Shown here piece after piece: positions 49,590 to 64,000 of a stretch of 64,000 nt of DNA (the first letter of the stretch is position 1; the number at the start of each line of letters is the position of its first letter). Source of the DNA: Bacteroidales bacterium. GTDB taxonomy: Bacteria; Bacteroidota; Bacteroidia; Bacteroidales; ML635J-15. Location of the stretch: positions 18,811-82,810 of the forward strand of contig JAFGVU010000101.1 of assembly GCA_016937855.1 (NCBI GenBank), written 5' to 3'. Both the position numbers and the translations under genes were made by a program. The notes beneath the pieces are model-generated. The model made no database searches, was not told where the DNA came from, and worked only from the letters and a program-made list of their open reading frames with translations.

Positions 49590-50459
49590 TTATGTAAAAT
49601 TGTTTTGTATAGAGTCTCGAATTTCTTCCATAAGCCACAATGGGGTTGAGGTGGCACCGCTAATACCAACAGAATGTTTCCCAAAAAACCAATCCTTTTT
49701 TAGATCATCTGATGCTGTTACAAAAAAGCTTTGGTTATTTGAATCGCTACAAACTTTGAAAAGCATGCTTCCATTACTAGATTTTGGGTCACTCACAAAA
49801 ATAATCAAGTCGTGTTTTTTACAGAACTCTGTTAATCGGGGTATTCGGTTTTTAACACTTGGGCAAATCGTTTGAAATACAGTTATATTGTCAATATTTC
49901 CATAAATCGAAATTGATTTTTCTTTTAAATATGTTTCAATTTTACAATAATCTGCAAAATTTGATGTTGTTTGTGAAAATAAAAATACCGGTTGAGAAAT
50001 ATCTATTTTGTCGGCTTCATTTATACTGCTTATTACTATTGCTTTACCATTTGTTTGTCCTACAAGTCCGTTTACTTCAGCATGTCCTTTTTTCCCGAAT
50101 ATTACGATTTGGTTTTTTGAGTTTTCGAGATGTTTTTCTTTGATTTTTTTTTGTAGGTTTAATACAACTGGGCAAGTAGCATCAATTAATTCGACATTTT
50201 GATTCTTTGCAATTTTGTATGTTTCGGGGGGTTCACCATGTGCCCGAATAAGCATTTTTTTTGATCCTAATTCTTTTATCTGGGAATGATCGATCGTTTT
50301 CATTCCAAGTTTTTTTAATCTGTCCTCTTCTTTTGCATTATGCACAATCTGCCCTAGACAAAATATGGGTTGATTGTCTTTGCTAAGCGATTCGGCGGTT
50401 TTTATTGCTTTGGTTACACCAAAACAAAAACCTGCATATTTGTCAATTTCGATCTTCAT
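49590..50459 (-). CDS. ispH: 4-hydroxy-3-methylbut-2-enyl diphosphate reductase
   Basis: A 289-residue Fe-S enzyme catalysing the last step of the non-mevalonate isoprenoid route. Landmarks are the first cluster Cys in YAGFCFGVTKAI, QIVHNAKEEDRL, RAHGEPPETY, DATCPVV (second Cys), FQTICPSVKNR (third Cys), and VSDPKSSNGSMLFKVC. Its start overlaps the end of cmk by 17 bp. Confidence 0.95.
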   Translation of the reverse strand: MKIEIDKYAGFCFGVTKAIKTAESLSKDNQPIFCLGQIVHNAKEEDRLKKLGMKTIDHSQIKELGSKKMLIRAHGEPPETYKIAKNQNVELIDATCPVVLNLQKKIKEKHLENSKNQIVIFGKKGHAEVNGLVGQTNGKAIVISSINEADKIDISQPVFLFSQTTSNFADYCKIETYLKEKSISIYGNIDNITVFQTICPSVKNRIPRLTEFCKKHDLIIFVSDPKSSNGSMLFKVCSDSNNQSFFVTASDDLKKDWFFGKHSVGISGATSTPLWLMEEIRDSIQNNFT

Positions 50460-51153
50460 AAATAATTTTGTTTGCCAAATCTAGTGCAATTTTTAACTGT
50501 TGTTCGCGCGTTAGCGATGTATTATCAATTAAAATAGCATCACTAGCTTGTTTTAGAGGACTTGTTTTACGAGACTTGTCATAGTTGTCGCGTTGGATAA
50601 GATTCTGTTTAACAGTGTCAAAATCAACATCAACATTTTGTGATCTTAGCTCTTCGTATCTTCTTTGTGCCCTAATATTAACATCTGCTGTAATAAACAG
50701 TTTTAACTCAGCCTTTGGAAAAACTACGGTTCCAATATCACGACCATCCATTACAACTCCATTATCTACGCTAAGTTTTCGCTGCAATATCACCATCTGC
50801 TTTCTTACTTCCGGAACAGCACTAACCTGACTTACATAAGAAGAAACATCTATTTGACGAATTTGTTTTTCGACATTTTTATTGTTTAAGAATGTTATAG
50901 GATTAAATTCATGGTCTGGTTCAAAATGTATTATAATTTTTTGGAGTGAGTTAATCAAATTTTGCTGATAAAAATAATTGTTTCCAATGAATTTTTTTTC
51001 GATGGCAAAAAGAGTAACAGCTCTATACATGGCACCACTGTCGATATAAATGTATCCAAGTTCTCCTGCAAGCTGACGAGCTAATGTGCTTTTGCCACAA
51101 GAGGAGTAACCGTCAACTGCAATTTTTATTTTTTTTATTGCTTCTAATATCAT
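50443..51153 (-). CDS. cmk: Cytidylate kinase
   Basis: A 236-residue kinase phosphorylating CMP and dCMP. The P-loop is VDGYSSCGKSTLARQLA near residue 12; YIDSGAMYRAVTL and VMDGRDIGTVVFP are diagnostic. ATG 51153 is chosen because the longer frame reaches back past the promoter box and its extra residues are not family-like. First gene of the operon cmk-ispH-pfkA-priA. Confidence 0.93.
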   Translation of the reverse strand: MILEAIKKIKIAVDGYSSCGKSTLARQLAGELGYIYIDSGAMYRAVTLFAIEKKFIGNNYFYQQNLINSLQKIIIHFEPDHEFNPITFLNNKNVEKQIRQIDVSSYVSQVSAVPEVRKQMVILQRKLSVDNGVVMDGRDIGTVVFPKAELKLFITADVNIRAQRRYEELRSQNVDVDFDTVKQNLIQRDNYDKSRKTSPLKQASDAILIDNTSLTREQQLKIALDLANKIIYEDRN

Positions 51154-51188
51154 TAATTTAAAAAATAAATTTTCAGTGTGTGTGAATG

Positions 51189-51196
51189 CAAATTTA
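51189..51196 (-). promoter_or_regulatory. Bacteroidota -7 box (TAAATTTG, minus strand) for cmk
   Basis: On the minus strand this reads TAAATTTG, an exact TAnnTTTG match, 35 bp before the cmk start. Confidence 0.6.
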
Positions 51197-51831
51197 CGAA
51201 AAGAAATAGATAAAACAGGTAATTTTTTGTTCAACTATTATTTTTTGTTTTCATCTTGCTGTTTTGTTGCTCGAAATATTAAATGAATTTGGGCATCCAT
51301 ATTTAATCCGCATTATGCTGGTTAAAACTAAGATGAAATATCTTTTTAACGGGATTCGCATGTTCAAATATTTCAACTAAACAATATTCAATGATTAATA
51401 AACTATTTGCCACGAAAACAATAAAAATACGAAAAGCTTGTCGCTGCGTCACTTACTTCGATTCCGAAAGATATCGGAGCTCAGCACAAGTCGTTTCTTG
51501 CTCCAAGAGATTTTAGACAACTAAATTCGTTCGTACTTCGATTATTCGCTTGTGCCGAGCCATAGGCTCCCCGACAAATCGGGACAGGCAGAGCATCCTC
51601 GTTAAAAAAAGAAATTGCCTTACATTCTTTTTTTTACGCAAATGCTAAAATAATAAATTGTATTTTTTGTCTGAGTAAATGCAATTTCTATCCCGCTAAA
51701 ATACGAGGATCCACGACTAGCCAAAGGCTGAGTCGGGAATTTAAGGGGATTCGTTTGTTCTTTTGTTCGTTTGTTCTTCCGTTCGATTGTTCGATTGTTC
51801 CCTAGTTTCCTAGTATAAATGTTCTGCTCTT
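51197..51831. other. Intergenic region with short hairpins and a GTTC-rich tract
   Basis: No gene is called in this stretch between porQ and cmk. It contains hairpin-forming bits (CCGACAAATCGGG near 51571; TCCGAAAGATATCGGA near 51469), possibly a decayed repeat copy, and a run of TTGTTC/TCGATTGTTC-like units at 51751-51800. No promoter other than the cmk box is evident. Confidence 0.45.
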
Positions 51832-52884
51832 TTAAAGATTAGTGCTTTTGTAGAATGCGTCAAGGTTTATTCCAAGTGTAAAGTGGTTTGAGCTTCCGGC
51901 AAGATGGTAGGATGCGAGGCCATAACTGATGTTAAATTTTGATAAATGAAGTCCAAATCCAACAGACATTCCTACTAATTTTGGCATAGTTGTAATAGCG
52001 AGTTCGGTTCGTCTCCGATAATTGTATCCTAAAGCAATGTAGAAATTAGGGTGAGGAACAATCTCAACGCCTAGAATAAAATGTCTTATAAATTCATCAC
52101 CAATATCCCCCATTTTATTAAAAAAGTTACCATCATTTCCTTCATCAAGTTGGTAGGTGTTCGAAAAGGCACTTGTGTATGATAAATTCCAGTTTAATAA
52201 ATCCATTGCCGTTACCGAAAACCGGAAAGGAGCATGTCGTAGCTTTTTTGTAATTCCAATTTGTACATCAAGAGGTAGTGGTTCTTGATTCCCGGGTGTG
52301 TAAGGTTTTAATTGTATTCCAAGATTTTTAACGACCAATCCAGTTGAAAAAAGATTTGCGGTGTCGATGTAGGCTAATCCTGCATCAATAGCTAATCCTG
52401 ATGAAAAATAAGAGAAAAATGATGAGTAAATGGTTTTTAGATTTACTCCATAGTGTAATTTTGGTAAGATGATTTTCGCATACGAGATGTTAAAAGAATA
52501 CTCTGAAGGAGTAAATTCACCTAAAATTTCGCCTGTTTCATCAGAATGTAAAAATGTGCCGTAGTTGATGTATTGAATTCCTCCGGCAAATGTTCCGATA
52601 TTTTTGAGGTCGTAAGCGTAAGAAACATATCCAAAGTTGATGTCGGAAAGATAATTTATGTAATTTATCGCCATACGATTGTGCATTTCGCCACGTAATA
52701 AAGCTGGATTGTTAAGAACAAAATTTACATCATTGTCATAATGCGAAACATTATTACCTCCAAGAGCAGCTAATCGTGACCCCGCCGGTAAATTAAGGAA
52801 CTCATACGTATTGTCTCCTCCGGTTTGAGCAAACAAACCTAAAGAAAAGAGAGAAATCATTATTACAATTATACTGAGTTTCAT
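51832..52884 (-). CDS. porQ: PorQ-like T9SS-associated outer-membrane barrel
   Basis: A 350-residue barrel with signal peptide (MKLSIIVIMISLFSLGLFAQ). The N-terminal stretch GGDNTYEFLNLPAGSRLAALGG and the repeating barrel strands fit PorQ, an outer-membrane component tied to the type IX system (members of the PorV/PorP/PorQ FadL-like group). Its neighbourhood with cmk/ispH/pfkA is one I recall for Bacteroidota. It would serve export of the four T9SS cargo proteins encoded in this window (inference). Confidence 0.82.
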   Translation of the reverse strand: MKLSIIVIMISLFSLGLFAQTGGDNTYEFLNLPAGSRLAALGGNNVSHYDNDVNFVLNNPALLRGEMHNRMAINYINYLSDINFGYVSYAYDLKNIGTFAGGIQYINYGTFLHSDETGEILGEFTPSEYSFNISYAKIILPKLHYGVNLKTIYSSFFSYFSSGLAIDAGLAYIDTANLFSTGLVVKNLGIQLKPYTPGNQEPLPLDVQIGITKKLRHAPFRFSVTAMDLLNWNLSYTSAFSNTYQLDEGNDGNFFNKMGDIGDEFIRHFILGVEIVPHPNFYIALGYNYRRRTELAITTMPKLVGMSVGFGLHLSKFNISYGLASYHLAGSSNHFTLGINLDAFYKSTNL

Positions 52885-54492: not shown

Positions 54493-56997
54493 ATGAAAAA
54501 AGGGATTTTAATTTTAACTGCACTACTGATAACGATTATTGGTTTTGCACAGGAGGCAGATACTTTGCCACAAAAAAGTCCTGAGATTCCGGTGATTACA
54601 CTTACTGATTCCGAACTGGATGAGGATAATCAATCACAGGATATATCAGGATTACTTAGTTCGTCCACTGACGTTTATGTAAATATTGCCGGATATACAT
54701 TTGGGCAAGCACGTTTTAGAATCAGAGGATATGACAATCAGAATACTTATGTTTTGATTGACGGAATTTATGTTAACGATGCCGAAACCGGAAGACCATA
54801 TTATGGTAATTGGGGTGGATTAAATGAGGTGATGAGGAATAAAGTTGTTTCTCCCGGTTTAGCATTTTCGGATTATTCGTTTGGTGGAATTGGAGGGGTA
54901 ACAAATATTATTACTCGCCCCTCTCAGCAAAGAGCCGGAACAAGCATTTCTTATGCATCCGCAAACAAATCTTATCGAAACAGAGCAATGTTTAGTCATT
55001 CTACAGGATTGATGGATAACGGTTGGGCTTTTACTCTATCGGGTTCGTCTCGTTGGGCAGAGGAAGGATATGTTCAGGGGTCATTTTATGAAGCTTATTC
55101 GTATTTTATTGGAGCAGAAAAGAAGATTAACGATAAGCATAGTATTGCTCTAACATTTTACGGATCGCCATCACGCAGAGGTAAAACCGGTGTTGGCACC
55201 GCCGAAGTTTATGAACTTACAGGAGACAATTTCTATAATCCAAATTGGGGTTACCAAAATGGAGTAATGAGAAATGCAAAAGTTGGAACATTTCATCAGC
55301 CACGCACAATGCTAAGTCATTATTGGCAAATTGATCCAACAATGAAACTTACAACTTCGGTTTCATATGCGGCAGGTAGAGCCGGTTCAACTGCACTTAA
55401 CTGGTATGATGCTGCCGACCCAAGACCAGACTATTACAGAAATTTGCCAAGTTATTACGAAGAGGGCGAATTTATGTATGACTACCTTACCGAAATGTGG
55501 CAAAACAGCGAAACTTTCCGTCAACTCGATTGGGATTCATTCTATCATGCAAATCGTAAAAATCTCTACACAGTAGAAGATGTTGGTGGAGAAGAAGGAG
55601 TTGATATTACCGGAAATCGTGCAAAATTTATTATTGAAGACAGACGATATGATCTTAACAGAATCGATTTTGCAACATTATTTAGCAAGGAGTTAAACGA
55701 AAAAACAAAACTGATTACAGGGATAAACTACTTGTCCAGTAAAACGCATAACTATAAACTTGTCGAGGACTTATTGGGTGCAGATTGGTGGTTAGATATC
55801 GACCAATTTGCCGAGAGAGATAATGCCGACGACGTGTATATTATTCAAAGTGATGTTAGTAATCCTAACAACGTGGTTTACGAGGGTGAGCTTTTTGGTT
55901 ACGATTATGTTACTAATATTACTAAATCAAGTGCGTTTGCTCAAGCCGAAACAAAACTGGAGCATATAGATTTATTTGCCGGAGTTGATGTTTCATATAC
56001 CGAGTTTTGGAGAACAGGTAATATGAGAAATGGCAAATTCCCTGCAAATTCTTATGGGAATTCACCAACTTATAAATTTTTGAACTATGGCGTAAAAGGT
56101 GGAGCAAATGTAAAAATTACAGGTCGTAATTTTGTACTGTTAAATGCTGCCTATTTAACAAGAGCTCCGTTTGTAAGAGATGCTTTTGTGTCGCCACGTA
56201 CAAGACACGATGTGGTTGATAATTTGACAAGCGAAAAAATTTATACAGGTGATATCAGCTATTTTTATCGTTCTCCATATGTTCAGGCCAAAATTACAGG
56301 GTTTTACACACAGTTTACTGATGGGTTACAATCATCTAGTTTCTATCACGATGAATTGAGAACTTTTGTTAACTATGCAATGACAGGAGTAAACAAAACT
56401 CATTATGGAGCAGAGTTAGGAATTGAGGCAAAACTCACATCAACTTTTACTGCAACATTTGCGACAGGATACGGAAAGTATTTATATAGCAGTCGTCCGA
56501 GCGTTACAATTGCTCAGGATAATAGCTCTGAAGTTTTAGCTGAAAACAGAACAGTATATATTAAAAATTATCACGTTGGATCGATGCCGGAATATGCTGC
56601 CTCAATTGGTGGAAAGTATTATGCACCTAAATATTGGTTTGTTGGGCTTAATGCAAATTACTTTGCCGAAAGCTATATTAATATAAACCCTGAAAAACAT
56701 ACTGCTGAAGCATTAAATATTTTCGTTACTGACGACCCACAAGTTGAACCAATACTAGAGCAAGAAAAACTCGACCCTGGTTATACTTTTGACATTTGGG
56801 GTGGTAAATCATGGAGAATCGAAGATTATACAATTGGGTTTACACTTAGTATTAATAATATTTTGGATAATACCGACCTAATAACTAACGGATACGAACA
56901 ATATCGTTTCGATCAAAACGATATAGATAAATTCCCAAATAAATATTTCCATTTATACGGAAGATCGTATTTCCTTAATGTGTATTTTAGATTTTAA
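54493..56997 (+). CDS. TonB-dependent outer-membrane receptor
   Basis: An 834-residue protein: signal peptide MKKGILILTALLITIIGFAQ; plug domain about 40-150 with RFRIRGYDNQNTYVLIDGIY and GGIGGVTNIITRP; then a 22-strand-type barrel ending in YFLNVYFRF (terminal aromatic). There is no N-terminal CarboxypepD-like domain and no SusD partner, so it is not a standard SusCD glycan pair. It heads an operon with two DUF5689 lipoproteins and a secreted nuclease (gaps 17, 36 and 41 bp), which suggests uptake of a nuclease product or a nucleic-acid ligand (inference). Confidence 0.9.
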   Translation: MKKGILILTALLITIIGFAQEADTLPQKSPEIPVITLTDSELDEDNQSQDISGLLSSSTDVYVNIAGYTFGQARFRIRGYDNQNTYVLIDGIYVNDAETGRPYYGNWGGLNEVMRNKVVSPGLAFSDYSFGGIGGVTNIITRPSQQRAGTSISYASANKSYRNRAMFSHSTGLMDNGWAFTLSGSSRWAEEGYVQGSFYEAYSYFIGAEKKINDKHSIALTFYGSPSRRGKTGVGTAEVYELTGDNFYNPNWGYQNGVMRNAKVGTFHQPRTMLSHYWQIDPTMKLTTSVSYAAGRAGSTALNWYDAADPRPDYYRNLPSYYEEGEFMYDYLTEMWQNSETFRQLDWDSFYHANRKNLYTVEDVGGEEGVDITGNRAKFIIEDRRYDLNRIDFATLFSKELNEKTKLITGINYLSSKTHNYKLVEDLLGADWWLDIDQFAERDNADDVYIIQSDVSNPNNVVYEGELFGYDYVTNITKSSAFAQAETKLEHIDLFAGVDVSYTEFWRTGNMRNGKFPANSYGNSPTYKFLNYGVKGGANVKITGRNFVLLNAAYLTRAPFVRDAFVSPRTRHDVVDNLTSEKIYTGDISYFYRSPYVQAKITGFYTQFTDGLQSSSFYHDELRTFVNYAMTGVNKTHYGAELGIEAKLTSTFTATFATGYGKYLYSSRPSVTIAQDNSSEVLAENRTVYIKNYHVGSMPEYAASIGGKYYAPKYWFVGLNANYFAESYININPEKHTAEALNIFVTDDPQVEPILEQEKLDPGYTFDIWGGKSWRIEDYTIGFTLSINNILDNTDLITNGYEQYRFDQNDIDKFPNKYFHLYGRSYFLNVYFRF

Positions 56998-57014
56998 CGA
57001 ATTAAAATTAAGAA

Positions 57015-57818
57015 ATGATGAAAAATAAAATAATAATATTAGTTTCTATCATGGCTGCATTTGCTTTTGCCTTTGTTAGCTGTGACGAAGAACTCGACAC
57101 GCCACCCATTGCAGAAGTTGATCAGAATAAAGTATTAACGATTGCAGATATTTATCAAATGTATGCCGATAGTGGAGAATACACTTTTGTGGATGATTAT
57201 ATGCTGTATGCAACAGTTATAATGGATGACTATTCAGGGAATATTTATAAAGAAGCTTATGTTCAGGACTCTACAGGGGGCATTAATCTTTATAAATTAA
57301 CTTATGCCGAATCTGTTAAGATTGGTGAATATATAAGAATTAATCTTAATGGAGTTAAAATAGTAAAGTATAGTGGAAAAATGGAATTGTCTTTTGTAGA
57401 GGTTTTGGATTCTGATAAAAAGATTGTTGTTCAAAACACAAATGTGCCAATAACCCCACAGGAGGTCACCATTGAGGATATTTTAACAGGTGCTTATGAA
57501 AACAAACTAGTTGAAATCAGAGATGTCCAATTTGCTAGCAACGAGTTAGGCTTGGTTTATTGTGTTGAGACGGCTAATGATCCTGATGAAGAGTCTTTTT
57601 ATGATAAAAATAGAACATTAGAGGATTGTGATAATAGGAGTATTATTGTTAGAACGAGCGAATATGCTTCTTTTGCTAAAGATACAGTAGCTCAGGGTAA
57701 GGGAAATATAATAGGTGTTGTAACTTTATTTTATCAATATAGTGGTGCTCCAGCTACATGGCAATTGTTGCTTCGCTCTATTGATGAAGTAAATATGGAT
57801 GACGAAAGATGTATCTAG
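57015..57818 (+). CDS. DUF5689-type surface lipoprotein with OB-fold-like segment
   Basis: A 267-residue lipoprotein; lipobox FVSC (Cys near residue 23). The body has the DUF5689 pattern. ATVIMDDYSGNIYKEAYVQD, followed by STGGINLYKL and EYIRINLNGVKIVKYSGKME, is the strand order of an OB-fold, comparable to the OB domains of secreted nucleases. A second half (TIEDILTGAYENKLVEIRDV) repeats the theme. It starts 17 bp after the TonB receptor and probably sits on the cell surface as its partner. Ligand binding is inferred, not shown. Confidence 0.8.
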   Translation: MMKNKIIILVSIMAAFAFAFVSCDEELDTPPIAEVDQNKVLTIADIYQMYADSGEYTFVDDYMLYATVIMDDYSGNIYKEAYVQDSTGGINLYKLTYAESVKIGEYIRINLNGVKIVKYSGKMELSFVEVLDSDKKIVVQNTNVPITPQEVTIEDILTGAYENKLVEIRDVQFASNELGLVYCVETANDPDEESFYDKNRTLEDCDNRSIIVRTSEYASFAKDTVAQGKGNIIGVVTLFYQYSGAPATWQLLLRSIDEVNMDDERCI

Positions 57819-57854
57819 AAATGATAGTTATTGAAAAAATTAAAAATTTAAAAA

Positions 57855-59147
57855 ATGAAAGTAAATCAGTTATTAAGAAACTCAAAAATTGCACTATTGT
57901 CATTTTTGGTGATATCTGTTAGTAGTTGTATTCACAATGAGTTTGAAGAACCTCCTACAAATGTTATACCTGTTGGAAAAGTTTATACTATTCAAGATTT
58001 ATATGCAATTTATGATTCAGTTTATTTTGCTGAAGAGACAGAGAGTGCAACATATAAATTTACAGAAGATTGCTCTGTTTATGCCGTAATATCAATGGAT
58101 GATAAATCCGGGAATTTGTATAAATCTGCATACATGCAGGATGGCATACGAGGAATAAATTTACATCTTTTGTCTTCTGGAGGATTGTATGAAGGTGATT
58201 CTGTTCAAATCTTCCTTAAAGATTTGGTTTTGGGTAAATATTCAGGAATGCTGCAACTTGATTCTGTAGATACTGATAAAAATGTTGTAAAAGTAGCAAC
58301 ATTAAGAGATATTGAACCAGAAGTTGTTACAATATCTGATTTAATTACATATGATGGAATTCTTGGTAGGCCATATATTGGAAGAATTGTCAAAATTGAC
58401 AACGTTCAATTTCAAGATAAAGAATTAGGTAAGACATATGCTGATGCCACTAATCTTATTACAGAAAACAGAGCTTTAGAAAATGAATATGGTGATACAA
58501 TTGTTGTAAGAACAAGTGGATATGCCAGTTTTGCAGATCAAAAGATTCCTGAAGGAAGAGGAAGTATAATCGCTTTGGCAGGTTTCTATAATGGAGATTG
58601 GCAGTTATTAATACGTCATGTTGGGGAAGTCAACTTCAATCAACGTCGTTTTGGTGATTATGATACTGTTTTATTTGCCGGATTTGATGGAATTGATAAT
58701 GGTATTGCAGTAAGTTTAACCGATTGGGAAAACTATCAACAAATTGGAAGTATTTCTTGGCTAGGGTCTAATAATGGCGAATCTGCAACTGTTAGAATTG
58801 CAGGTAATGATGAGGCAAATACAACATGGTTAATTACTCCACAGGTTGCTATAAATGGAGCAAAATTAAAGTTTAGCACAAGAGGTGGTTTTTTGACCGG
58901 AGCTACTCTAAAAGCCTATATATCAAATGATTATGATGGACAGGGAAATGCCGAGAACGCAACCTGGACAGAATTGTCAGCAAATATTGGTACAGGTCCT
59001 GTTAGCTCGTTTGGTGCTTGGACAGAATCTGGAACAATAGATTTGGCAAGTTATAACGGACAAGCATATATTGCATTCAAATATGTTACCGAAGCCGGAC
59101 AGAACGGTCAATTCTATGTCGACGACATACTAGTTTTTAATGAATAA
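57855..59147 (+). CDS. DUF5689 lipoprotein with C-terminal choice-of-anchor J-like domain
   Basis: A 430-residue lipoprotein; lipobox SVSSC (Cys near 24). Residues about 40-250 repeat the DUF5689/OB-like layout of the previous gene (AVISMDDKSGNLYKSAYMQD, EGDSVQIFLKDLVLGKYSGM), and the two are clearly paralogous there. Residues 260-430 form a jelly-roll of the choice-of-anchor J type (TTWLITPQVAINGAKLKFSTR, WTESGTIDLASYNGQAYIAF), often a glycan- or surface-binding module. The intrinsic terminator 9 bp after it may partly separate it from the nuclease gene. Confidence 0.82.
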   Translation: MKVNQLLRNSKIALLSFLVISVSSCIHNEFEEPPTNVIPVGKVYTIQDLYAIYDSVYFAEETESATYKFTEDCSVYAVISMDDKSGNLYKSAYMQDGIRGINLHLLSSGGLYEGDSVQIFLKDLVLGKYSGMLQLDSVDTDKNVVKVATLRDIEPEVVTISDLITYDGILGRPYIGRIVKIDNVQFQDKELGKTYADATNLITENRALENEYGDTIVVRTSGYASFADQKIPEGRGSIIALAGFYNGDWQLLIRHVGEVNFNQRRFGDYDTVLFAGFDGIDNGIAVSLTDWENYQQIGSISWLGSNNGESATVRIAGNDEANTTWLITPQVAINGAKLKFSTRGGFLTGATLKAYISNDYDGQGNAENATWTELSANIGTGPVSSFGAWTESGTIDLASYNGQAYIAFKYVTEAGQNGQFYVDDILVFNE

Positions 59148-59155
59148 AATATTTT

Positions 59156-59184
59156 AAGGGTGGCTCTCCGGGTCACCCTTTTTT
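59156..59184 (+). terminator. Intrinsic terminator between the second DUF5689 gene and the nuclease
   Basis: Stem AAGGGTG / CACCCTT with an 11-base loop followed by TTTTTT. It lies 9 bp past the stop and ends 5 bp before the next ATG, so it might attenuate nuclease expression. Confidence 0.75.
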
Positions 59185-59188
59185 GATT

Positions 59189-60442
59189 ATGAAGTACTGT
59201 TTTCTAATAATTGTTTTTATAGTGTTTGCATCTGTCAATTTTTATGCGCAGAGCGATACCATATCTATAAATAAAGTTTTAGACGAACTTAAGGTTGTCG
59301 AAAACAAACGTGATAGTTTGCTAAACTGCATCGAAGACATAAAATTAAACAATCTGAAATCCCAACTTCTCGCAAAAGGAATTCCGGAATTATTAGAAGG
59401 AGAAACCCTAATTTGTCATTCGGCATTTTGCCTTGTTTACAGTGAGGAACACGAAGTTGCAAAATGGGTGGCTCATGTTTTAAGTAATGAAATTGTAAAT
59501 GGAAATGTGTCACGGTCAAATGATTTTAGAATCGACACACTAATTATTACAGGATCATCGCAGGAAGAAGATTATTTTGTGAAAGAGCTAAAAGAGGATG
59601 GAAGTTACAAGTATGACGGATTTGGTTATGACAGAGGACACCTAGCCCCTTCGGCAGATTTTAGGTGGTCGGAAAAAGCCCTTAGCGAATCGTACTTTTA
59701 CTCTAATATGACCCCTCAATTACCGGATTTTAATCGTGAAATATGGGCAGATTTGGAAAGCTTTCTGAGAGCACATGTTTATAATAATCCTACTAAAGAT
59801 TTATTTGTTATTACAGCACCCGTTTTAACCGACAATCTGCCCAAACAAACTCGCGGTGTAAATAATATGTCTATTCCGGAACTACACTATAAAATTGCTG
59901 TCGATTTTGAAGATGAAAAAGGAATAGCTTTTTTAATTCCTCAAAAATATAACGACTACCCAATAGAGTCTTTTGTTGTAAGTATCGATTCGCTTGAAAC
60001 ATTAACAGGGATAAATTTTTATCCGAATCTATCCGAGAATCAAGAGAAAAAAATTGAGGCTAATTCTGATATTACTGTATGGCGAAGCGGAAAAGCAAAA
60101 AACGATGTGGCGCCCTTAAGCCCCGAAGATCTTCCACGAAATTGTTACAATACTATTCAAGCAAAACAGTTTTACGATTATCCAAAAGAAGTTAGTATTT
60201 GTGGCACAGTAGTAAGCACTCACAAATCCAGAAATGGACATATCTTTATCAATTTAGATAAAGCTTTTCCTAATCAAGTGTTTAGTGCTACAATTTGGAA
60301 ATCTAATGTGGTAAATTATAGCTATGAGCCGGAAGTTTTTCTCTTAAACAAAAAGGTTTGCATTAAAGGAAAAATTCAGGATTATCAGGGAACCCCATCA
60401 ATTTATCCCGAAAACGAAAAAGCAATTAAAATTCTCGAATAA
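59189..60442 (+). CDS. Secreted DNA/RNA non-specific endonuclease with OB-like C-terminus
   Basis: A 417-residue exported nuclease. Signal peptide about 1-20 (ends NFYAQ). A NUC1-type nuclease domain spans roughly 80-290: GYDRGHLAPSADFRWSE carries the Arg-Gly-His active-site motif, and MTPQLPDFNREIWADLE supplies the metal-binding Asn. The C-terminal 100 residues (VSICGTVVSTHKSRNGHIFI and VCIKGKIQDYQGTPSIY) look like an OB-fold. The start is ATG 59189; the TTG six bases earlier is rejected. The intrinsic terminator directly before this start suggests its level is tuned. Confidence 0.88.
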   Translation: MKYCFLIIVFIVFASVNFYAQSDTISINKVLDELKVVENKRDSLLNCIEDIKLNNLKSQLLAKGIPELLEGETLICHSAFCLVYSEEHEVAKWVAHVLSNEIVNGNVSRSNDFRIDTLIITGSSQEEDYFVKELKEDGSYKYDGFGYDRGHLAPSADFRWSEKALSESYFYSNMTPQLPDFNREIWADLESFLRAHVYNNPTKDLFVITAPVLTDNLPKQTRGVNNMSIPELHYKIAVDFEDEKGIAFLIPQKYNDYPIESFVVSIDSLETLTGINFYPNLSENQEKKIEANSDITVWRSGKAKNDVAPLSPEDLPRNCYNTIQAKQFYDYPKEVSICGTVVSTHKSRNGHIFINLDKAFPNQVFSATIWKSNVVNYSYEPEVFLLNKKVCIKGKIQDYQGTPSIYPENEKAIKILE

Positions 60443-60462: not shown

Positions 60463-61881
60463 TTATTTTGGAATTTCATTCATATCGTGTCCTTCGATAA
60501 TATTAAATAGATAGGATTCAAAATTATCAGTTGGGGAAAGAGCCGGAGACATTATTAATGTACCTTTTGGGCTAATAAAGTAATACGAAGGATATGTAGA
60601 AACTTTATAATGGCTTATAGTCTCGGAGTTTATTTCTGTAAATAAAAAAGTCCAGTTATAATTGTTCTTTCGCATAAAATTACTTGCAGCAGCGCGGTCT
60701 TCATCGGTTAGTACTGTTATAAAAGTGCAATAGCCATTATAACGATCGTATATTCTTTTCATGAGATCAAATTCCGTTTGAGAAGAATATGTTTGAGTAT
60801 TAGCAAAATGCAGATAAACGTATTTTCCTCTGTAGTCGAACAGTTCTTTTATATTGCCAGCGCTATCGGGCAATGCAAATGGAGGCGCAATTGTACCTTT
60901 TGCTAAACTCAGGGTATTGTCGGCAATGTTTTGTGCAATAATTTTGTGTTGAGGATATTGCGTTGTGATGTGTAACGAATCTAAAGTTAGGAGTAGTGGA
61001 AGCCACGAAAGATTTTTATTTGCAAAGCTATCATTTATTCCTTTGAGAATAACCAATTCTCGAAATTGCTTATTGCGTAACTCAAAATGTTCAGACAGGA
61101 GCATATTTAATCTTCTGATGCTATGACCATAATTTATAACTGCATACAAATATGCCCCATTTTTGGAAACCAAATATTTGTCAAAATAGTCGCTGTAAAT
61201 GTTGTTAAAAAGATCCATGTATGCTGGATTGTCATACAGAACAGAATCTTTTGTAAAATAGGCGTAAACTAAAGCTTTTTCGTATTGCTTTTGAGTAGCC
61301 AGGTTTTTTAGGGCAGCGATTCTGTATTTTTTATACGATTGGAAATAATCATTGTCGGCGTACTCATATTGTTTGTTTATTTCATTTATAAATGTGTCGA
61401 TATCTGTTTTAAGTCCTTGGGAATAAATATCGAGAAATTTTAAATCGTGATACCTAAAATAATAATAATCGAAATCGATAATCAAATAATTGAGGTCTGT
61501 TTTTTGTAAATTTTTGATTCCAATATGTACTTTTTCGGGAGTAAAAAATGGGTTAAAAATGTCCTTATTCTCTTTTTCGACAAGTGGAGGTAGTATTATT
61601 TCGTAGCTATTATTTGGCTCGGCAAAAAGATATGCGTGATAAATTCCAAATTCGCCAAAAACATAAGTTATTTCATCTAAGTCAAATGATGTTTTGAAAT
61701 TTCCCGATGTGTCAATTTGTAATCTAAAAACTTCTTCTTTGAGAAAAGTAATGCGGTCTTGATATCGATAAAAAATTAATTCGCTGCCGGCATAATCCTT
61801 TGCGTTACCATAAATTTCGGTAGCATGCAGATTTACAACCGAAAACAGAAACAATAATATGTAGATTATTATTTTATTCAC
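60463..61881 (-). CDS. Thioredoxin-fold (TlpA-like) protein lacking the redox CXXC
   Basis: A 472-residue exported protein (signal peptide MNKIIIYILLFLFSVVNLHA). Residues about 20-310 are an unassigned, mainly helical region seen in Bacteroidota TlpA-like proteins. The thioredoxin-like domain begins near 325 (GTIAPPFALPDSAGNIKEL). Where Cys-x2-Cys is expected after the first strand the sequence is HFANTQTYSSQTEFDLMKR, so both cysteines are missing and a redox role is unlikely. It converges on the nuclease gene, 20 bp apart. Confidence 0.75.
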   Translation of the reverse strand: MNKIIIYILLFLFSVVNLHATEIYGNAKDYAGSELIFYRYQDRITFLKEEVFRLQIDTSGNFKTSFDLDEITYVFGEFGIYHAYLFAEPNNSYEIILPPLVEKENKDIFNPFFTPEKVHIGIKNLQKTDLNYLIIDFDYYYFRYHDLKFLDIYSQGLKTDIDTFINEINKQYEYADNDYFQSYKKYRIAALKNLATQKQYEKALVYAYFTKDSVLYDNPAYMDLFNNIYSDYFDKYLVSKNGAYLYAVINYGHSIRRLNMLLSEHFELRNKQFRELVILKGINDSFANKNLSWLPLLLTLDSLHITTQYPQHKIIAQNIADNTLSLAKGTIAPPFALPDSAGNIKELFDYRGKYVYLHFANTQTYSSQTEFDLMKRIYDRYNGYCTFITVLTDEDRAAASNFMRKNNYNWTFLFTEINSETISHYKVSTYPSYYFISPKGTLIMSPALSPTDNFESYLFNIIEGHDMNEIPK

Positions 61882-61982: not shown

Positions 61983-62861
61983 CTATTTGTTGTTTGCCAA
62001 GTTATCGAGAACAATTTTTACCAGTTTTTTTACGAACGGTTTGTAGTCTTTGCTGTATTGTTTTGCGTATCTGTTTGCAATAATTACACAAACTGTTGCT
62101 GCGCTATGTCCTAACAGAGCCGAAAGTCCGAAAAGAGCCGAGCTTTCCATTTCGTAGTTAGTAATACATTTGCCATCGAATCTAAAAGAGCGAATTTTGT
62201 CATTTATATCTCTGTCTTGAATTTGCAGACGCAATTCTCGTCCTTGTGGTCCATAAAATCCGGGCGATGAAATTGTCAACCCTCTTCTAAAGCCATTATC
62301 AATACGATTCATTAGTTTTTCGGAAGCATTAACAAAATATGGGGTTGCTATTTTAGGATTCCAGTTCATGTGTTTTAGGAATTCCGATTCAATTGTCAGG
62401 TTGCAAACAGTATCACGATCTTTATAAAAGTTTAATAGACCGTCGAAACCTATTGCCATTTCCGACATCAGAAATGAATCAACCGGCATATCTTCTTGTA
62501 ATCCTCCGGATGTACCAATTCTTACGAAATTTAAGCTTTTGTGTTCTTTTTTTATTGTGCGATTTTCGAGATCGATATTAACCAAAGCATCTAATTCGTT
62601 TAGCACAATGTCAATATTGTCGGTGCCTATACCGGTTGCTACAACCGAAATTCTTTTGCCTTTGTATGTGCCTGTATGTGTAATAAACTCGCGGTTATGT
62701 ACTATGTGTTCGATATTGTCGAAATGTGACGAAACTACTGCAACACGTCCCGGATCTCCAACTAAAATAATATCGTCAGCAATTTGATCAGGAGTTAGGT
62801 GCAAATGAAAAATACTACCATCTTGATTTATTATTAATTCTGAATTCCCAATTTTTTTCAT
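61983..62861 (-). CDS. Nucleoside phosphorylase (uridine phosphorylase type)
   Basis: A 292-residue cytoplasmic enzyme splitting nucleosides with phosphate. LVGDPGRVAVVSSHFDNIEH near residue 33 (phosphate-binding Gly-Asp-Pro), RIGTSGGLQEDMP and the NYEMESSALFGLSALLGH (Met-Glu-Ser-Ser) ribose/base site are diagnostic for the PNP/UDP superfamily; uridine versus purine use is not resolved. It fits breakdown of nucleosides from the neighbouring secreted nuclease (inference). It has no clear -7 box; its start faces the Usp gene. Confidence 0.88.
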   Translation of the reverse strand: MKKIGNSELIINQDGSIFHLHLTPDQIADDIILVGDPGRVAVVSSHFDNIEHIVHNREFITHTGTYKGKRISVVATGIGTDNIDIVLNELDALVNIDLENRTIKKEHKSLNFVRIGTSGGLQEDMPVDSFLMSEMAIGFDGLLNFYKDRDTVCNLTIESEFLKHMNWNPKIATPYFVNASEKLMNRIDNGFRRGLTISSPGFYGPQGRELRLQIQDRDINDKIRSFRFDGKCITNYEMESSALFGLSALLGHSAATVCVIIANRYAKQYSKDYKPFVKKLVKIVLDNLANNK

Positions 62862-62933: not shown

Positions 62934-63749
62934 ATGATAAAAAATAGGATTCTAGTACCGACCAATTTTTCGCCTCAGGCAGAAATTGCATTAAAGCAAA
63001 GCGTGTTTTTCTCAGCCAAAACAAACGCTGATGTGTTTTTTATGCACATTATTCCTAGTCTAAAAAGAATAGACAATAACAGTAATGTCATAGAGAATAT
63101 CCAAAATCAAATGGATAAAATTATTAACTCGCTAAGCACTATGGGTGGAGGAAAAATTATTACAAGGATCGAAACCGGAAAAGTAATAACCCAAATTCTA
63201 AATGCAGAGAGAGAGCTAAAACCTTCCTATATTTTTATTGGAACAGATGTTAACTCTAAACCGAACTCTTCTACAACATTGAGGATTTTAAATCATGTTG
63301 ACTGTCCTTTGGTTGTTTTTACCGGGCGTTCTGATAAGACGGGATGCGAGAAAATTATTTTACCACTTGATTTGACAAAAGAAACAAAACAAAAGATTGA
63401 TCAAACAATTAAAGTTGCAAAAATTTACAAATCTGAAGTACACATTGTTTCTGCAACCAATTTTGAGGATGAGTTAATGTGTAATAAGATAAAAGACCAA
63501 ATGATGCAGGTTAAGGGCATTTTTGATAAACTTGAAATAAAGTCGGAAATTAAATTGCTTAAAACAAAAAACGATATAGAAATAATGGCAAATGCCATTA
63601 ACGACTATGCAGACGATATTGATGCAGACTTAATTGTAATAATGACACGCCAAGAGAATAAATTGCAAAAATTTTTCGTGGGAAGTATGGCAATTAAACT
63701 TATTCGCAAATCAACTGTTCCTATTTTGTGTATTAGTCCTAAAAATTAA
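62934..63749 (+). CDS. Tandem-domain universal stress protein
   Basis: A 271-residue cytoplasmic protein with two Usp-type domains, about 1-140 and 140-271. The first begins NRILVPTNFSPQAEIALKQS; the second begins KIILPLDLTKETKQKIDQ and ends with VGSMAIKLIRKSTVPILCIS. The ATP-binding Gly-x2-Gly-x9-Gly(Ser/Thr) pattern is only partly visible in either half. ATG 62934 is chosen over the longer frame (MVISKLQREF) because the extra residues are outside the domain. Function beyond stress response is unknown. Confidence 0.85.
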   Translation: MIKNRILVPTNFSPQAEIALKQSVFFSAKTNADVFFMHIIPSLKRIDNNSNVIENIQNQMDKIINSLSTMGGGKIITRIETGKVITQILNAERELKPSYIFIGTDVNSKPNSSTTLRILNHVDCPLVVFTGRSDKTGCEKIILPLDLTKETKQKIDQTIKVAKIYKSEVHIVSATNFEDELMCNKIKDQMMQVKGIFDKLEIKSEIKLLKTKNDIEIMANAINDYADDIDADLIVIMTRQENKLQKFFVGSMAIKLIRKSTVPILCISPKN

Positions 63750-64000
63750 AAAAAGAATATGGTGAATTTTCGAGAAACTCAAAAATTCATGTTAAGAAAA
63801 AGAAAAAAAGAAATATGGTGAATTTTCGAGAAACTCAAAAATTCATGTTAAGAAAAAGAAAAAAAGAATAAGGTGAATTTTCGAGAAATTCAAAAATTCA
63901 TGTTAAGAAAAAGAAAAAAAGAATATGGTGAATTTTCGAGAAACTCAAAAATTCATGTTAAGAAAAAGAAAAAAAGAATAAGGTGAATTTTCGAGAAACT
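63750..64000 (+). repeat. Tandem array of a 55-bp palindromic repeat, running off the right edge
   Basis: GGTGAATTTTCGAG starts at 63761, 63817, 63872, 63927 and 63982, a spacing of 56, 55, 55 and 55 bp. Each unit has a hairpin (GAATTTT.GAG, loop AAA, CTC.AAAATTC), then CATGTTAAG and an A/G-rich run. Copies differ by few bases (for example AATATGG or AATAAGG). It is the tandem form of the palindrome scattered elsewhere in the window. Confidence 0.9.

Follow-up and report, generated by a model that had tools for sequence, protein, structure and literature searches.

A probable DNA-import locus of a Bacteroidales bacterium related to the transformation locus of Riemerella anatipestifer

The window, as the whole analysed stretch of 64,000 nucleotides is called here, carries a locus that on sequence grounds is a variant of the Riemerella-type transformation locus in which the lipoprotein gene is duplicated and a NUC1 nuclease gene stands in line; it probably acts as an outer-membrane DNA-import module, feeding ComEC, nutrition or both. 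The crossing of the outer membrane by DNA is an open question in Bacteroidota, and the new element is that an ortholog of the Riemerella receptor and its partner are found, together with a recurrent nuclease, across many families within the window's order and also beyond it, in further orders of the class; this wide distribution and the partnership with nucleases are the most informative of the results.

The initial annotation had described four consecutive rightward genes encoding a TonB receptor without SusD, two DUF5689 lipoproteins and a secreted NUC1-type nuclease, and this description held (Table 1). The four co-directional open reading frames are separated by gaps of 17, 36 and 41 bases, the nuclease starting at the ATG at 59189 and not at the TTG at 59183.

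Table 1. Coordinates of the features at the locus (54493-60442 of the window)
Feature	Position	Strand	Remarks
TonB-dependent receptor (TBDR), P0001	54493..56997	+	834 aa, signal peptide, plug domain, without CarboxypepD_reg
DUF5689 lipoprotein 1 (P0002)	57015..57818	+	267 aa, Cys23 followed by DEELD
DUF5689 lipoprotein 2	57855..59147	+	430 aa; C-terminal choice-of-anchor J / DUF5017 domain
Terminator-like hairpin and T run	59156..59185	+	11 pairs with a 3-base loop
Secreted NUC1-type DNA/RNA non-specific endonuclease (P0004)	59189..60442	+	DRGH motif, C-terminal OB-like segment at about residues 335-409

Regarding the individual proteins, Pfam recognized the plug domain in P0001 (E 1.7e-8), DUF5689 in lipoproteins 1 and 2 (E 1.3e-45 and 8.2e-45, respectively) and Endonuclease_NS in the nuclease (E 1.7e-42), with its DRGH motif intact and invariant in all eight aligned NUC1 proteins; the DUF5017 / choice-of-anchor J domain of lipoprotein 2 was found with both Pfam and NCBIfam. 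SusD had zero Pfam matches among the six proteins scanned, and CarboxypepD_reg was found neither on the receptor of the locus nor on that of the same-genus locus L015. The two DUF5689 genes are the only ones in the whole genome. Cys23 of lipoprotein 1 is invariant among 45 aligned homologs, and the lipobox of DUF5689 proteins often has V-K-(D/E)2-F-D after it, a pattern that we take to resemble a lipoprotein surface-export signal. On its other side, the receptor gene neighbors an iron-type alcohol dehydrogenase; just upstream, at 50443-52884, lie a cytidylate kinase-like gene and the gene for PorQ, a protein of type IX secretion (NF033711, E 5.5e-114).

The connection with R. anatipestifer came from a transposon screen for natural transformation that names RA0C_RS04915 and RA0C_RS04920, the latter composed of DUF5689 and DUF5017 (PMC8459023). 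Markerless deletion of either gene gave zero transformants, against a wild-type frequency of 5e-5 (PMC8459023), and both TonBA and TonBB are required for transformation of this species (PMC8383284). The receptor had been reported from Flavobacteriaceae only (PMC8459023), and within the open-access literature searched, whose coverage leaves out most preprints and subscription papers, DUF5689 is named in that paper alone. The R. anatipestifer genome was located by means of the published comEC primer, and the region fetched, L088, has the order comEC, two genes, a divergent EEP nuclease, TBDR and DUF5689, which fits RA0C_RS04895 to RS04920. The window TBDR and RA0C_RS04915 are reciprocal best hits, with 36% identity over about 807 aa: P0001 scored 442 bits with RS04915 and 182 with the next Riemerella protein, and the Riemerella TBDR scored 444 bits with P0001 and 44.7 with the next protein of the window genome. 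Lipoprotein 2 is a homolog of RA0C_RS04920 (phmmer 1.8e-24). As a side observation, a Cas9-looking open reading frame of 1400 aa (15211-19413 of L088) is two genes from the R. anatipestifer transformation locus.

The core shared with Riemerella is the receptor and its DUF5689 partner; in both genomes an orthologous receptor is followed by a co-directional DUF5689 lipoprotein gene, with a secreted nuclease next door. The differences concern the surroundings of this core: the Riemerella nuclease is of the EEP type and divergent (RA0C_RS04910, a tag inferred from the gene order), whereas that of the window is a NUC1 enzyme encoded downstream; the window has two DUF5689 genes; the Riemerella receptor has a CarboxypepD_reg domain, unlike that of the window; and comEC, which lies a few genes from the receptor in Riemerella, is elsewhere in the window genome. 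Because the window locus has neither the EEP nuclease nor the CarboxypepD_reg domain, it is classed as a variant. The 695-aa HhH protein of the window genome had no detectable match to the Riemerella HhH protein. The initial annotation knew of no described system with exactly this set and missed the relation to Riemerella, in which a relative with the core pair and a divergent nuclease has been described.

As for its distribution, a search over 149 genomes of the order, nearly all from different families, detected DUF5689 in 87 genomes, at full length in about 70, and about 70 loci from the order were fetched along with 20 from further orders in the class and phylum; open reading frames were called greedily by length, and some labels of neighboring genes are approximate (the uridine kinase of L015, for instance, was hidden by this procedure). 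A TBDR homolog adjoins DUF5689 in nearly all the loci of the order, the exceptions including contig ends. Outside the order, 16 of the 20 loci are strong DUF5689 matches, with a TBDR in 15 of these 16 and a divergent EEP nuclease in 14; the four weak matches have no TBDR partner. When a tree was built by approximate likelihood, a single clade (support 87), set apart from other TBDRs, took in 81 of the 82 locus TBDRs, the window and Riemerella receptors among them; the one outside it is the second TBDR of L028. The four genes had been expected to occur together across Bacteroidota, and this applies to the core pair, adjacent in 83 of the 90 loci fetched, but not to NUC1, which is a minority nuclease.

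In 64 of the 83 TBDR-DUF5689 loci, a nuclease gene lies within four genes, and these nucleases belong to three unrelated families. The commonest is EEP (PF19580), which has a weak ExeM/NucH match and usually is divergent from the TBDR and carries a secretion signal; the others are endonuclease I (PF04231) and NUC1. The EEP gene is within four genes in 57 of the 83 TBDR-adjacent loci, and a high-scoring EEP nuclease occurs in 58 of the 70 genomes with full-length DUF5689 against 7 of the 79 without it (Fisher 2.6e-21, the genomes being related, though nearly all are from different families). The window genome has its high-scoring EEP gene on another contig, C51, and none beside the receptor. 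NUC1, with about 0.63 genes per genome, would be expected by chance as a neighbor of about 0.16 loci and was observed at 8, one of which (L039), with its gene on the opposite strand, may be fortuitous. Three further families (L032, L023 and L083) have exactly the order TBDR-DUF5689-DUF5689-NUC1, the second protein of L023 and L083 being placed in the DUF5689 group by a custom profile, with Pfam assigning that of L023 to DUF6359. Other arrangements include NUC1-EEP-TBDR-DUF5689 in L060, L078 and L080, with a 1462-aa protein of four DUF5689 copies beside this run in L060 (766-5151). Finally, DUF5689 is fused to EEP domains in two proteins, directly before EEP in L122 and between a lamin-tail domain and EEP in L120. 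These fusions, like the EEP type of the usual locus nuclease, recall the extracellular nucleases of the ExeM/NucH type; in the window, instead, separate lipoproteins carry DUF5689, and the enzyme beside them is of the NUC1 type.

What we infer for this organism is the role of the nuclease and the use made of the locus. The DUF5689 lipoproteins, presumably surface-exposed, would bind DNA or feed it at the mouth of the TBDR, and TonB, through the proton-motive force, would pull it through the receptor into the periplasm; from here, ComEC would take one strand into the cytoplasm for transformation or, alternatively, periplasmic enzymes would degrade the imported DNA as a nutrient. The NUC1 enzyme, which is secreted and probably less expressed behind its hairpin, would cut extracellular nucleic acid into pieces that can be imported or digested. 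Orthology, conserved pairing and the recurrent nuclease partnership, all computed here, speak for DNA import; against it, the transformation phenotype comes from a distant relative, at 36% identity, whose receptor differs in its CarboxypepD_reg domain, the locus occurs without a tie to ComEC, and Flavobacterium johnsoniae could not be transformed in the conditions that were tried (PMC7965970). Homologs exist in the genus Flavobacterium (PMC8459023).

The capture, cutting and import of nucleic acid had been proposed from the start as a way to obtain phosphate or nucleosides. The substrate and the team of TBDR, lipoproteins and nuclease are well supported, owing to the conserved pair, the three nuclease families, the DUF5689-EEP fusions and the Riemerella phenotype; the nutrient-only purpose is conjectural, and the phosphorylase does not belong to the unit. 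According to the nutrient-only account, the nuclease cuts, the lipoproteins capture and the TBDR imports oligonucleotides or nucleosides as a source of phosphorus, nitrogen or carbon, with no transformation, and this is unlikely: in Riemerella, the one organism tested, transformation by intact DNA, which requires long DNA and not nucleosides, does not occur without the orthologous genes (PMC8459023), and the window's phosphorylase gene has no conserved place beside the locus. In its favor are the recurrence at the locus of secreted nucleases of three families, the use of extracellular DNA as a carbon source by sediment Bacteroidota (PMC8289736), and the uridine kinase gene that in a same-genus genome (L015, 6954 onward) follows the second DUF5689 gene at a distance of about 25 bases, as well as the retention of the locus in lineages with ComEC missing or interrupted. 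ComEC had no match in 7 of the 70 locus-bearing genomes, among them G002, which is 99% complete, and the two f35 genomes sampled, its absence in locus-bearing compared with locus-negative genomes giving a Fisher p of 0.08. The two f9 genomes whose locus combines NUC1 with EEP both have a ComEC frame with one internal stop (matches at G008:C1:114722-115447 and G126:C5:31077-31796), while they keep the TBDR-DUF5689-nuclease locus. Since the locus is kept in such genomes, a nutritional use is conceivable, and the same machine may serve feeding in some lineages and transformation in others. The window genome does encode ComEC (G000:C186:33931-34725), which is near-universal in the order and counts for little; its presence across the order was discarded as support for transformation, being too common, with exceptions that point the other way.

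It is highly improbable that the receptor imports another cargo, for example an iron complex, the nucleases being coincidental or a defense against DNA nets or biofilm. Metal complexes are the cargo of most TBDRs, and the NCBIfam profiles nearest to P0001 are those of B12 and siderophore receptors, although these matches are weak and far below cut-off. Against this reading, the nuclease partnership is far above chance, DUF5689 is fused to nucleases, the Riemerella phenotype concerns transformation, and mutants without TonBA transform less well while their iron uptake is not reduced (PMC8383284). The Sus-type PUL (SusC/SusD) resembles the window locus in having a TBDR, then lipoprotein genes, and a degradative enzyme, but the window has neither SusD nor CarboxypepD_reg, its lipoproteins are DUF5689 proteins and its enzyme is a nuclease. 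Izemoplasma belongs to a different phylum and has no outer membrane, hence no TonB-dependent receptor. The DNA-degradation loci of this type share with the window the co-location of extracellular nucleases with import functions (PMC8289736).

Returning to DNA import as the preferred reading, it can be extended to Bacteroidia at large, in which a TonB-powered receptor with DUF5689 lipoproteins would replace the type IV pilus and secretin, and the adjoining nuclease would tune transformation versus feeding; we give this tentative extension slightly less than an even chance. If DNA import is the right reading, TonB-dependent receptors move DNA, and a defined gene set makes horizontal gene transfer testable in a phylum prominent in the gut and the environment. 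The window genome also has a secretin (L132, G000:C249) with GspL/PilN-like neighbors, which may be another outer-membrane route; neither the same-genus genome nor R. anatipestifer yielded a secretin.

The four genes had been taken for one operon, a reading at odds with the terminator-like hairpin that separates the third gene from the nuclease. This hairpin is GC-rich, with an 11-bp stem, a folding energy of -16.1 kcal/mol and a z of -3.2, and together with the T run it stops a few bases short of the nuclease ATG; with so strong a hairpin before its start, the nuclease may depend on read-through, and it is likely that it is expressed in this way or else apart from the other three genes. Taken further, the nuclease would be a separate unit behind a TBDR-DUF5689 operon and the functional unit would consist of three genes, an arrangement that is compatible with DNA import. 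The hairpin argues for it, as does the same-genus genome G081, without a nuclease at the locus; nevertheless, it is rather doubtful, given that there is no room for a promoter between the T run and the nuclease ATG and that the same gene order is found in three other families.

The nucleoside phosphorylase (61983-62861) had been placed next to these genes; instead, it is on the opposite strand, with a thioredoxin-like gene (60463-61881) in between, and had no match in any other fetched locus. The phosphorylase and thioredoxin-like genes were both rejected as members of the locus; they run opposite to its four genes and are not conserved beside it.

Three OB-like segments, two in the lipoproteins and one in the nuclease tail, were also part of the initial annotation. 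Only the tail matches PF01336, with an E of 2.2e-4 and 21.5 bits, below the curated cut-off of 27, so that an OB-fold is weakly supported for this segment, and the seven other locus-associated NUC1 proteins are without it. DUF5689, for which an OB-fold is conjectural, had no OB match in Pfam or in the PDB sequence search, although its position beside an EEP catalytic domain in the fusions L120 and L122 may be a hint; the PDB search with the nuclease tail gave chance matches only; profile comparison found no internal repeat in DUF5689 and no likeness between its two halves and the nuclease tail. Viral contigs were searched for homologs to fold with and gave none, and the predicted structures, of P0004 from a single sequence and of P0002 from a two-row alignment, have a mean pLDDT of 35-37.

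A last observation concerns the very end of the contig, where a tandem array (63748-64000) consists of 4.6 copies of a 55-base unit with an internal hairpin and a 96% match; the contig probably broke within this array.
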